Assembly (NCBI RefSeq): GCF_040807025.1
Contig: NC_090952.1
Location: 1,550,001-1,614,000, forward strand
Origin: Struthio camelus
Taxonomy: Eukaryota; Chordata; Aves; Struthioniformes; Struthionidae
Length of the DNA stretch: 64,000 nucleotides
Reading direction: 5' to 3'
A program made the position numbers and the translations under genes. The notes beneath the pieces are model-generated. The model was not told the origin of the DNA, made no database searches, and saw nothing but the letters and a program-made list of their open reading frames with translations. The first letter of the stretch is position 1, and every line of letters starts with the position of its first letter. Of the stretch, positions 30,281 through 35,086 are shown piece after piece.

Positions 30281-30288
30281 TTACATCT
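30281..30288 (-). CDS. RGCC-like exon 5, only eight coding bases
   Basis: A strong branch and pyrimidine tract (TTTTTATCCCCTTGCTTGTCCTGCAG) precedes AGATGTAA. With the G left by exon 4 this gives Glu-Met-stop. The Met-stop ending matches the end of RGCC, which supports the splice despite the tiny size. Confidence 0.75.
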
Positions 30289-33200
30289 CTGCAGGACAAG
30301 CAAGGGGATAAAAACAGTGAGTCCACTGCAGAGAGTAGCAAGGGGCTGCACAGCACAGTGAAAACCCCCACCCAGAATAACTAGCAGTGGGTGTTGGAAC
30401 AGAAACCTGAATCAGGACTCTGGCTCTTGCTTGTAGTGACTCCCAGTATGACTCAGGGCCCACAGAGGCAACATTTCCTCATCAGCCAACTCATTTTGGA
30501 CACTCAGAGGGAAGGGAAGAAGCTACTGAGAGTCAACTCATTGTGTCTGTGTGGGGAGGTGAGGGGAAAGGGGAGTTCTCACTGCCTCCAGCCTGCTACC
30601 CAGAGTTCCTTCAGAGTGGGATTGTGGCCACTGTGCCTCAGTTTCCCCAGCTGTGAAGCTATGGGGACTCCCCAACTTCACAAGGCTGCAGAGCTGCCTG
30701 GGTAAGCAGCTTTCCATAGTTTCCATAGTTTTTCTGTGTTTTCTCCATAAACTTTCCATAGCTTATCTACCATCTTCCCCATGCTACCTGCTACCAAGCC
30801 CTTTGTCAGGAAGAAAGAACTGTTTTTTTGCAGAGTCAGACCAACGTGCCTGTGCTTTCAGAGGACCAGGCTCCCACAGAGATTGCTCAAGGGTGGGAAA
30901 CCTAGGTTGGGCCATATCACTATGAGAAAATACTTCCTCCCTCCATGCTCAGTTCCTTTCTTGCAGCTTAAGGGCTTTTCTTTGCAATCAGAAAGATATT
31001 GGAGGCACAGAGCCACAGCAACACCTGTAGGCCTTCCTACAAATGCCAGCCTAAAATAGCTCTATATAATCTACTGTTTTGCCATCTTTCCTCCAGTTTT
31101 TCATTGTATGGCCAGCCTGGGCTTCAAAACCCCAACCCCCTCCAACAGGGCAGCACTGCCACCCACACCTCACAAATTGGTGAAACTGAAGTACAAGGGA
31201 AGAGGCACAAGCAGTGGAATTTCTTCCCCAGCTGAGAGCTTGAAGGCATTCACAGATGCTATCTAGATGGGGCCCAGAACTGAAGGAGTTCACTACAGGA
31301 ACAAGATTCCACCTCTGCTGCTAAAGACAGTCTAACCCTTCTTGAGTGGGAATCCCAGCTATGAATAGTGCTGGGCAAGGCTCTTCTGAGCCAGATGAAG
31401 CAGCAAAGCCCCAGTCCAGGGGTTGTGCCATGCTGTGTTCCTGGGACAGGAGAAGGGTAGAACATGGCCAGACTTGCCATGTAGACTGAACTGGCACCCC
31501 GAAACAGAGAGGGTGATTTGTGCCCTGACTGCACACTAATGTCACAGCACAGCCAGTTCTGGAGAAACTACAGGCATCATGAAGGCTGTCCCATGCTTGG
31601 GCCAAGTTGTAGTGATCAGGGCTGTATACATACCCTCTAGCACTTTATCCAGATCTGCAATGAACTCTTCCAGCTCCTGTGTGTCTCCAAGCTTAGCTAG
31701 TGGACAGAAAGACACCCTGTCAGGCTTCTCCTTCTCTTCCTGCTTTAGTTTAGGTTAAACAAGGATCCCTGACCCTTGTTTCTGATGAAAATTGCTCAGG
31801 CTACCTACTGCTTTCATAAGAGTCATGCGCACGTCTGTGCAGACTGCCCGTGAACACATGGGATGGAGGTTATGTAACAGCTGCATTTGCAACAGGTTCT
31901 AGAGCAAACACTGCACAGCTCTAGAATAAACCCAAAAGCCTGTGAGCACAGTGTCTCTGTGGGTCAATGCATCTCTAGGGGATTAGAGTCCTTATTTGTA
32001 TCAGGACACTGAAGGCACCACAGATATGCAGTGATGAATCTTTCAAAGCAGTTGTCCAGCACTGCCAGGTTCTGGACTCCTGCACTCACATGGGGCTTAA
32101 TACCTGATCTATCAGGAATCTTCTCTAGGGCCAGTATGTTCCCCTCCACATACATACAGGGGTTGCAGATCAGAGCTGGGAGTTACAGGGCTGAGGAGCA
32201 AGCAGTCTTACCCATAGGACTGCCTGAGGGCAGCATGGAAGGGAAATCCCCGGGACTAATTCTGACCTAAAGATACAGGACATCTCCCCCCACCACCAGA
32301 ACTAGCCTTCTTCAGAAGGAGCTCTACCCTCCTCCCAGCCCACTTAGCCCCAAACTCTGGAGGCTGGGACATTCCCAGAAGGTATTGTACAAAGCAGCAC
32401 CCTGAAACCCAGCAAGGGCAATTCAGGCTGAATATCAGGAAAACAAAGGCAGAACCTCATCCTCCCACTCACATGAGTTAAGTTAGCAAGGTTAGAGTTG
32501 GATCAGTGCATAGTGGGAAGAAAACTACAGCTTAAGTCCCCTGCATCGTTTAATCTCTGCAAGATCTCCTGAATAGGGTCCTGGCTCAGTCTAGGACTAA
32601 CTGATAACATGCTAAACCAGCTTCATATCCGTTGCAGGATCCAGCCAGGGCCTCAGATCACAATATCTCTCCAAATCCTGCAACGCACCACAGGCATGCA
32701 CACACACACCCCCTTCACAGGCCAGAAGGATGCCTGTTGCCGCTGAGCCAGAAAGGGGTGATCTCAGGTGCCAGATATGGGACTTCCCTTATTGCTTTAG
32801 ACTCTTCTCACCAAGAACACACATGCCTAAGAAAACTCTTGCAAACAGCCTTTCAAACATATTCCAGCCTTACCTTTAGAGGTGTAAGCATTAGCAGGAG
32901 CATTGAGATCTTCCTCACTGGAGTTTAGACTGCTTCCTGGGGATGAGCTGGTACCTGCAGTTGCAAAGCATCAGTCACTGTCCAAGGCCCATAGGTTGCA
33001 GAACCAGGGGCCTAGCTTGTACATGGAAGAGGATCCCTAGTTTACCTACGCTCTTGGACAGCCCATTTGCATTTTTGCCACAAGGAACACTTAGAAAAGG
33101 GAACTGAGCTTTTCTACCAGAGGCCTAATAGCATCAAGTTCCCCAGGTACAGCCATGGGGAATCCCTAGGGTTATTACAGAGAACAGAGAGGATCAGAGG

Positions 33201-35086
33201 GAAACAATCATGTCAAGCCCAGTGCAATTCTGTAGCAGTCAAGCCAGCAGATGCTGACAGGTGCTGACCAAGAAAGCTAGATCCAGTGGTCATCGCAGCC
33301 CTCCCAGACAAATCCCAGTGTTACTCATACAACCCTCAAGAGACGAGTCAGACAACTCAAAGGCTGGATCAGCAGTAAGTTTAGTGATTTACCACAGAAG
33401 AACCAGAGTGCTCAAAGCCGTTCTGTCCTGATAGCAAAGCTATCCTCCCCCACAGCTCCTAGTCGCTTAGCCCCAGACTCACTCTCTAGCTCATCAATGC
33501 CACTGTCATATACACTGTGGCCCACTTTCCTCTTCAGCTCTTCCAGATGCTGTTCATACTGACATGCAGGGCCCCTGTCAAAGTCCTCAATCACCTCATC
33601 AAACTCCTGCAAAAGGCTGCTTAAGTCATCCGGCAGTGCTGTGGGACAAGAAAAAAAAACAAAACAAACTGAGGTTTCAGACAGGTACCAGGCAAACAAC
33701 CCCAGCCAAAGCTTTTCTGGAGCAGTAACAGGCTGGTGACAGAACAGGCCTAGGCTCTGTACCACAGGGCAGCTAAGCTGCTCCAACAGCTTTGCAGAGG
33801 CAGGGCAGAAACTCTGTTCAGTGCAGCAAGCTTGGGGTTCACTTTTTCCCCTCGCTTCCCTGGCAGAGCTCTGAGCACATCCAAATCCTTAGAAAGCACA
33901 GTAGTCCTTCCAGCTCATCCCACTGCTGAGCATGAGACAGCCCAGTAAGAGCTAATCCTGGGCTGGCAGCAGGCAGCTCCTGCCTACTGAAGTTCCTTAT
34001 TCCCCCACCCCATTCCCAGCCAGGTAGATGGGACAAGGCCAAAAAACAAAGAACAGACCAAAGAGCCTGGCACCAGGAGGAAATATTTTCAGGGAGCATC
34101 CATCCCCCTGGTGCAAGGAACAATCCTTCCAGGCCAGTGCCCTGTAGGTAACAGTTTTGATCCTGGACCCAGCTTCTCCCTGCACCTTCAGGCAAGGCTA
34201 TAGCAGGGCCCGGACATATTTTGAGCACAGTTCATCATCTTAAATATACTATAGCTTGTAACAAGGCAGCAGGGCTGCAAACAGACCTATTGAGGTCTGG
34301 TGGCTGCTCCATAGGGATACATCACAAGAATGCCCTCAAAGCCAATGGCATTTACTCCATCCCCTTCTGAAGGCAGGGAGACTCCAGCACGCACAAGCAT
34401 ACTGCACCTCACCAGACCCCATTGGCCAGATTGGGCTGACTGAAAAAAACAGAGAGCCCCCACTTGTACTTCCACCCCATGTTAGGATTCTACCCCATGA
34501 AGCCAGCCTAGCCCTGGGGAGGGAAGACTGGGGCAGCACCACTGCAGAGAGCTGAGGACAGCACTGCCTTCAAGGGAGAGCCACACAAGGGCCAGCCCTG
34601 AGCTCAGGTCACTTTTGAAAGGGAGCTCATGGAAAGGGACAGCAGGCAGGAGAATGTGCACAGCCAGGGCACACTGACAGAGCATTGCAGGAAGACCTGG
34701 TGTGGCCTCCAGTGATACAGGCCAGGCCAAAAGGCCCAGCCAGGCAAACATAAGGCCAAGGTAGAAAGCCAGCTGGGGGGTGGCCTTGACCTTTGTTTTG
34801 CAGCTTTTAAATCACATCCTTCTCCCAGAGCAAACAATAAGCACTGTGTTGGGCTCACTTCCTCCACACTTTTTCTAACAGGAGTCATCACAAGGAGAGG
34901 GGAAAAAAAAGCACGTGCAAGCCTCTTCCAAAAGCGGGTGGCACTCGGGTGGGCCAGGCCCCGCACAGCAGGGCACCTGTCCAGAGCAGACCGGGGACGG
35001 GGCAAGCCCCGAGGCGACGCCACAACAGCGCGGCACTGACAGCTAAGCGGGCGGCAGCACTCACCGGCGGCGGGCTCGGCGGCCAT
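30281..35086 (-). CDS. RGCC (RGC-32) paralogue, complete five-exon gene
   Basis: Five exons (35065-35086, 33483-33638, 32874-32954, 31634-31696, 30281-30288) join in perfect phase to 330 coding bases, 109 residues plus stop. The N-terminal half carries LLQEFDEVIEDFD and a QYEQHLEELKRK segment followed by SVYDSGIDE. A serine-rich linker (SSSPGSSLNSSEEDLN) leads to the C-terminal block AKLGDTQELEEFIADLDK and ends in Glu-Met. Human RGCC, as I recall it, has the same architecture: a CEFDAVLADF-like start, [11 protein letters not shown], and [22 protein letters not shown] at the end. RGCC binds CDK1 and responds to TGF-beta and p53. Divergence is too great for the conserved RGCC orthologue, so I infer an ancient paralogue. 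A CpG/TATA-like promoter lies just upstream, and the next gene downstream of the window order is an ARHGAP36-like RhoGAP. Confidence 0.85.
31634..31696 (-). CDS. RGCC-like exon 4 (conserved C-terminal block)
   Basis: It encodes AKLGDTQELEEFIADLDK then VLE, and ends GAGG|GTATGT. Phase 1 in, 1 out. This block is the part most alike between this protein and RGCC. If the donor were ignored the frame would run on for about 30 unrelated codons. Confidence 0.85.
32874..32954 (-). CDS. RGCC-like exon 3 (Ser-rich linker)
   Basis: It runs from a TTGCAACTGCAG acceptor to a G|GTAAGG donor, phase 1 in and out. It reads SSSPGSSLNSSEEDLN then APANAYTSK, probably disordered. The SP and SSEED clusters are plausible proline-directed and casein-kinase-type phosphosites (inference). 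Confidence 0.8.
33483..33638 (-). CDS. RGCC-like exon 2
   Basis: The acceptor follows a long T tract (TTTTTTCTTGTCCCACAG) and the donor is A|GTGAGT. It encodes LPDDLSSLLQEFDEVIEDFD and then the YEQHLEELKRK and SVYDSGIDELE segments. Phase 1 in, 1 out. This is the most diagnostic exon of the RGCC family resemblance. Confidence 0.85.
35065..35086 (-). CDS. RGCC-like exon 1
   Basis: An ATG in the context GGGACCATGG (strong Kozak) opens MAAEPAA plus one base, followed by a G|GTGAGT donor. Phase 1 out, matching exon 2. It lies about 125 bases downstream of a TATA-like box. Confidence 0.8.

Follow-up and report, generated by a model that had tools for sequence, protein, structure and literature searches.

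A second RGCC-family gene in the ostrich, in an Xq26-type block: a probable ohnologue of RGCC

RGCC (also known as RGC-32 or C13orf15) has so far been treated as a lone protein; a 2011 paper states that no other human protein is significantly homologous to RGC-32 (PMC3232240). A five-exon gene of RGCC architecture within a 64,000-nucleotide stretch of ostrich DNA (Struthio camelus, NC_090952.1, positions 1,550,001 to 1,614,000; hereafter the window) raises the question of whether it is RGCC itself, a spurious or decaying copy, or a true second member of the family and, if the last, where it came from. The evidence described below establishes it as real, a second RGCC-family gene in this genome, referred to here as the RGCC-like gene. 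Very probably it is a copy of RGCC that arose in an early vertebrate duplication of an ancestral block now represented in human at 13q14 and Xq26, retained here next to ARHGAP36 and ENOX2. That degree of confidence covers identity and origin; how the protein might act is judged apart. The reading rests on the presence of two RGCC-family genes in one genome, on their shared introns, on an intact frame with intact splice sites, and on mirrored flanks.

The gene and its place in the RGCC family

The RGCC-like gene runs on the minus strand from 35086 to 30281 of the window. Its spliced coding sequence of 330 nucleotides contains no internal stops and encodes a protein of 109 residues, MAAEPAAALPDDLSSLLQEFDEVIEDFDRGPACQYEQHLEELKRKVGHSVYDSGIDELESTSSSPGSSLNSSEEDLNAPANAYTSKAKLGDTQELEEFIADLDKVLEEM. 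Its features, in window coordinates, are as follows.

35211..35215, minus strand: TATAA box, 129 bp 5' of the ATG
35065..35086, minus strand: exon 1, coding part (MAAEPAA plus 1 nucleotide), with a GTGAGT donor and a CpG-rich promoter
33483..33638, minus strand: exon 2, acidic helix pair LPDDLSSLLQEFDEVIEDFD...YEQHLEELKRK and SVYDSGIDELE, matching Pfam PF15151
32874..32954, minus strand: exon 3, Ser-rich linker, without the SVTPCK of the ordinary RGCC on contig C1
31634..31696, minus strand: exon 4, AKLGDTQELEEFIADLDKVLE, the block conserved most
30281..30288, minus strand: exon 5, coding end (E, M, stop), AGATGTAA after TTGCTTGTCCTGCAG, with acceptor TGTCCTGCAG
28551..28556, minus strand: possible but weak polyadenylation signal AATAAA, the sole AATAAA or ATTAAA on this strand within 27001-30281

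Each of the four introns lies in phase 1, and the donors, in order GTGAGT, GTGAGT, GTAAGG, and GTATGT, belong to four good donor/acceptor pairs. The sequence surrounding the start (34900-35560) has a GC fraction of 0.72 and a CpG observed/expected ratio of 0.83. If the candidate polyadenylation signal is used, the 3' untranslated region would be about 1.7 kb long. Exon 2, modelled alone from its single sequence, folds into two helices (residues 3-21 and 24-43; mean predicted local distance difference test score 70, predicted template modelling score 0.45).

Against the Pfam RGCC family (PF15151, cut-off 27 bits), the protein scores 83 bits (E 2.7e-23), its residues 7-109 aligning with positions 14-128 of the 128-position profile. 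The three other Pfam families listed for it (E up to 1) all fall below their own cut-offs, and a sequence search of PDB gave nothing significant (best E 0.072). In viral and genome contig collections, which hold no vertebrate genomes, 39 and 444 pattern matches arose, but none could be confirmed as a relative, the outcome to be expected of a gene from a vertebrate.

How many such genes does the ostrich have? The genome comprises 1.45 Gb in 262 contigs, labelled here C1, C2, and so on, and the window is C11:1550001-1614000. A search of all of it with the PF15151 profile (E <= 10) scored six candidates, all of which matched. Three are exons of a gene at C1:189087609-189102361 (75, 49.3, and 36.9 bits) and two are exons of the RGCC-like gene at 1.58 Mb on C11 (40.6 and 28.5 bits). 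The last, on C2, lies below the cut-off (17.6 bits, E 3.7) and contains one stop. Only two genes in the genome therefore rise above the cut-off, the one at C1:189.09 Mb and the one on C11. In the control, one of 14 named genomes gave a match, and none gave one above the cut-off. The match to exon 2 of the RGCC-like gene does include a stop, but the match extends 71 bases beyond the donor, and the stop falls there. From the genome search, the control counts, and the position of that stop, we conclude that the RGCC-like gene is no chance match.

The gene on C1 makes the second point of comparison. Its exons 1-4, read from the matched loci, score 198 bits against PF15151 and give the 129 residues used here, the final S being inferred from a codon that the fourth intron splits. 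It and the RGCC-like gene are interrupted at the same four positions, all in phase 1 (four of four agree), and because positions and phases are shared with RGCC, the RGCC-like gene is not a retrocopy. Their products are identical at 50 of 108 sites (46%). The two genes also have in common a near-full match to the family model, the exon-2 region, the C-terminal KAKLGDT-ELE-FIADLD block, and a TATA promoter, the box lying 100 bp 5' of the ATG in C1 RGCC. They differ in the length of the linker, shorter in the RGCC-like protein, in the site for CDK1 phosphorylation (TP-x-K), absent from it, and in their surroundings, of the Xq26 type rather than the 13q14 type.

The original prediction, made from the window's letters, was of a 109-residue protein of RGCC architecture, too diverged to be RGCC itself. 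Exons, frame, splice sites, and family score bear out the first part, and the second follows from the gene on C1: since the place of RGCC is already held there, beside counterparts of ELF1 and ENOX1, the RGCC-like gene is something else.

Could it be a decaying or unexpressed pseudogene? It does lack a 17-residue stretch and the TP-K stretch found in RGCC. Against this stand the intact 330-nucleotide frame, the four good donor/acceptor pairs, and the TATA and CpG promoter. Also, in conserved blocks picked by hand from the alignment (52 codons), 34 codons specify the same residue as in RGCC, and 17 of these differ synonymously. This suggests long selection, although blocks chosen for their likeness do not amount to a test. 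Altogether, a pseudogene seems very unlikely.

A comparison of three sequences bears on the age of the duplication. The C1 protein is identical to a provisional human RGCC sequence at 96 of 129 sites (74%) and the RGCC-like protein at 55 of 109. Of the 108 sites where all three can be compared, 47 do not vary, 38 are shared by human and C1 only, 7 by human and RGCC-like only, 3 by C1 and RGCC-like only, and 13 differ in all three. Without the N-terminus (alignment column 27 onward, 97 sites), the three pairwise counts become 37, 5, and 2, in the same order. On the strength of these counts, the C1 gene is the orthologue of RGCC, and the RGCC-like gene is an outside paralogue without the look of a copy made recently. 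The counts lean towards a duplication before birds and mammals parted, as far as three sequences, one of them provisional, can show. To that extent they favour the original prediction, for which a tree had been proposed as a check, although three sequences leave the root unfixed.

The long branch of the RGCC-like gene, which alone differs at 38 of the 108 sites, is what would be expected of a fast-evolving duplicate peculiar to birds or reptiles. Against this, the RGCC-like protein is slightly closer to the provisional human sequence than to C1 RGCC (the 55 of 109 against 50 of 108 noted above), and it shares the human state at 7 sites versus 3 (5 versus 2 without the N-terminus), a small margin. 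Moreover, the gene sits in an ohnologue block, as described next. We consider a bird- or reptile-specific origin highly improbable.

Mirrored blocks on C1 and C11

If the RGCC-like gene is the partner of RGCC from a whole-genome duplication, as had been predicted, then its neighbours should be partners of the neighbours of RGCC. Exons were sought in 100 kb on either side of the window (on the upper side, from 1 kb beyond its end), with the following results, given in coordinates of C11.

1486669-1487346, plus strand: TNFSF gene, possible membrane exon, no Pfam match
1491984-1492211, plus strand: TNFSF gene, TNF-domain exon, the closest chains in PDB being those of TRAIL (E 4.9e-11) and of TNFSF11 (E 8.2e-6)
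1510222-1519060, minus strand: CLC exchanger gene, CLC-3 being the sole PDB molecule at E <= 1e-10
1635963-1639100, minus strand: ENOX exons, Pfam ENOX1-like, 101 bits
1698218-1699165, minus strand: exons of a mitochondrial-carrier gene, SLC25A14-like, from the exon scan
1705549-1705814, minus strand: RRM exon, RBMX2-like, from the exon scan
near 1708.8-1709.5 kb, minus strand: Ras-family exon, RAB33A-like, from the exon scan

The order on C11 is thus TNFSF, CLC exchanger, RGCC-like gene, a RhoGAP gene, ENOX, mitochondrial carrier, RRM gene (RBMX2-like), and Ras-family gene (RAB33A-like). The RGCC-like gene lies 51 kb from ENOX and 113-124 kb from the SLC25A14-, RBMX2-, and RAB33A-like exons. 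This Xq26 part of the human X is autosomal in birds.

Pieces of three of these neighbours were searched against the genome. The ENOX piece gave three matches in two places only, C11 (1.636-1.639 Mb) and C1 (190.025 Mb), and the SLC25A14/30 carrier piece gave four, again in two places only, C11 (1.698-1.699 Mb) and C1 (191.051 Mb). The TNFSF piece gave three matches, at C11 (1.492 Mb), C9 (27.12 Mb), and C1 (189.707 Mb). On C1, the counterparts of ELF1 and ENOX1 lie 0.26 Mb and 0.92 Mb from RGCC, respectively. The C1 block ELF1 - RGCC - TNFSF - ENOX - SLC25A (188.8-191.1 Mb) therefore has a mirror image on C11, where TNFSF - RGCC-like - ENOX - SLC25A span 1.49-1.70 Mb. The 13q14-type block pairs with the Xq26-type block, in the manner of two blocks left by a whole-genome duplication. 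The pairs ENOX1/ENOX2 and SLC25A30/SLC25A14, like RGCC and the RGCC-like gene, have one member in each of the same two blocks. Both members of each flanking pair are kept in human, unlike the partner of RGCC, apparently lost there.

Of the four flanking genes that had been suggested, ENOX2 and RBMX2 have their likely counterparts here, ELF4 does not, and IGSF1 was not searched for. The predicted partnership itself fares well: the flanks are of the Xq26 type, not the 13q14 type, and ENOX and SLC25A pairs run across C1 and C11. We infer that the duplication was one of the two early rounds of vertebrate whole-genome duplication (2R).

Divergence alone (46% identity) cannot separate 2R from some other old duplication, so one might imagine that RGCC was copied on a small scale before the bird-mammal split and that the copy landed beside ARHGAP36 and ENOX2. 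The target would have been small: were every position equally likely to receive the copy, the stretch reaching 100 kb to each side of ENOX2 makes up about 200 kb in 1.45 Gb. Also, the copy would have had to keep its introns, and the same two blocks are linked independently of RGCC by the ENOX and SLC25A pairs (more weakly by TNFSF). A small-scale duplication is thus improbable, and 2R remains our preferred origin.

Several considerations weigh against a 2R origin or temper it. Among the flanking pairs that would speak for 2R ohnologues, ENOX and SLC25A14/30 are shared between the blocks, TNFSF is shared less convincingly, and the ELF pair, alone among the expected elements that were sought, is not found on C11. 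The TNFSF pair is the weakest, as the C11 gene is nearer its relative on C9 (46% identity) than the one on C1 (38%), and nearer TRAIL than TNFSF11. A genome-wide profile search for the N-terminal domain of ELF4 (Elf-1_N, PF12310) found none on C11, its four matches lying at C1:188.82 Mb (the ELF1 counterpart) and C4:32.4 Mb (the ELF2 counterpart); perhaps ELF4 was lost or has diverged in this genome. The names ENOX2, SLC25A14, RBMX2, RAB33A, and ARHGAP36 reflect family matches and human gene orders at Xq26.1 and 13q14, rather than orthology trees. The human RGCC sequence that serves as the third point in the comparisons is provisional. Three sequences cannot fix a root, and the site counts lend support without being a tree; the long branch of the RGCC-like gene could also mean that the duplication was later and that the copy then evolved rapidly. 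Finally, the evidence comes from one genome and from sequence.

The TRAIL-like TNFSF gene (C11:1486669-1492211), separated from the RGCC-like gene by about 88 kb, is possibly another ligand ohnologue.

The RGCC-like copy appears to have been lost in human, and the lack of a significant human homologue of RGC-32, stated in PMC3232240, fits such a loss. The claim that the copy was kept in birds holds for this one genome, and its apparent loss in mammals leans on that statement about human proteins together with gene maps. No report of an RGCC paralogue or ohnologue was found in the literature searched, in which a paper on mouse reporter mutants (PMC4537176) contains the string "rgcc-b" 12 times; automated annotation may already carry an "RGCC-like" model. 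The gene provides RGCC with a second member for comparison and adds one gene to the 13q14/Xq26 whole-genome-duplication pair. Work on RGCC in chick or other birds may involve two genes.

The missing CDK1 site

To bind CDK1 and raise its activity, human RGC-32 must itself be phosphorylated by CDK1 at Thr91 (PMC3232240 and PMC12303305). At the corresponding site, C1 RGCC keeps SVTPCK, while the RGCC-like protein has NAYTSK after a gap of nine residues; there is no TP anywhere in its 109 residues, and so no counterpart of the target threonine of RGCC proper. Thr91 would be the T of VTPQK in human RGCC, residue 111 of 137, or 91 in a sequence 20 residues shorter. The RGCC-like gene shows which parts of the protein persist when the CDK1 site is absent.

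What might such a protein do? The gene would be transcribed from its TATA/CpG promoter, giving a small acidic adaptor that may work as RGCC does, through two conserved parts. These, the helix pair of exon 2 and the C-terminal KAKLGDT-ELE-FIADLD helix, could bind a kinase or other partners, so that the binding of partners would be kept and the switching by CDK1 would be gone. The product might then act constitutively in particular tissues, or it might compete with RGCC. The notion of a CDK1-uncoupled relative of RGCC, which derives from the absence of the exon-3 stretch that holds TP-x-K (human Thr91), is the likeliest state, but it is put forward tentatively, as somewhat doubtful. It hangs on one missing motif, and an SP in exon 3 (SSSPGSS) is a possible target of a proline-directed kinase.

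More broadly, the gene may be a functional 2R ohnologue, kept beside ARHGAP36 and ENOX2 in birds (perhaps in other non-mammals) while mammals lost it. Having shed the CDK1 switch, it would act as an RGCC independent of CDK1, and its block would also retain a TRAIL-like ligand gene as the opposite number of the TNFSF gene next to RGCC. We weigh the chances for and against this composite picture about equally. If it is true, birds have kept a fuller 13q14/Xq26 paralogon than mammals have.

The neighbouring RhoGAP gene and repeats in the window

The ARHGAP36-like neighbour that had been predicted is indeed there: its match to Pfam RhoGAP (157.6 bits) marks it as a real gene, in flanks of the Xq26 type. 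It spans the stretch between 1597 kb on C11, which is inside the window, and a probable N-terminal exon just beyond the window. Its exons, in window coordinates except for the last, are as follows.

47337..47434, minus strand: exon (29-residue peptide)
49136..49306, minus strand: RhoGAP exon
50322..50470, minus strand: RhoGAP exon
57466..57616, minus strand: RhoGAP exon
58147..58202, minus strand: exon with the arginine-finger motif GIFRVG
58716..58911, minus strand: exon
60071..60265, minus strand: possible upstream exon, ends uncertain; a weak call (E 0.96 to human ARHGAP36, no Pfam match)
C11:1615404-1615560: likely N-terminal exon, HSLSELERASLQE, likened to human ARHGAP36

A genome search with its protein gave 17 matches (140 of 200 candidates were scored), the close ones being the gene itself (5) and C1:141.9 Mb (4). 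The latter, 54-66% identical per exon, is its one other relative of comparable identity among the matches listed, and an exon there equals that of human ARHGAP6. ARHGAP6 was rejected as the identity of the neighbour, being on C1. ARHGAP40 was rejected as well: among the 17 matches listed (from 140 scored of 200 candidates) there was no third member at comparable identity, and the flanks are ENOX-, SLC25A14-, RBMX2-, and RAB33A-like.

Where the ostrich gene has GIFRVG, human ARHGAP36 reads GIFTLE (GIFTLEYSVQRV), and the loss of GTPase-activating chemistry in ARHGAP36 may be a mammalian change. Human ARHGAP36 carries an RRGAV pseudosubstrate for protein kinase A (PMC5059767). The exon at 58716-58911 starts with GAMSVDS, which aligns with it; a preceding exon carrying the arginines was not found in the 1.4 kb examined. 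Papers on the ARHGAP family, including PMC13336777 and PMC13277934, contain nothing on bird synteny in the parts available.

Elsewhere in the window, a GC-rich tandem repeat with a 20-bp unit occupies positions 11265-12557 in about 65 copies (87% matches) and gives rise to long but spurious open frames on each strand. Remains of CR1-like long interspersed nuclear elements, recognized by reverse-transcriptase-like frames in the lists of open reading frames, lie at about 3.9-5.6, 43.5-44.5, and 54.8-55.9 kb.

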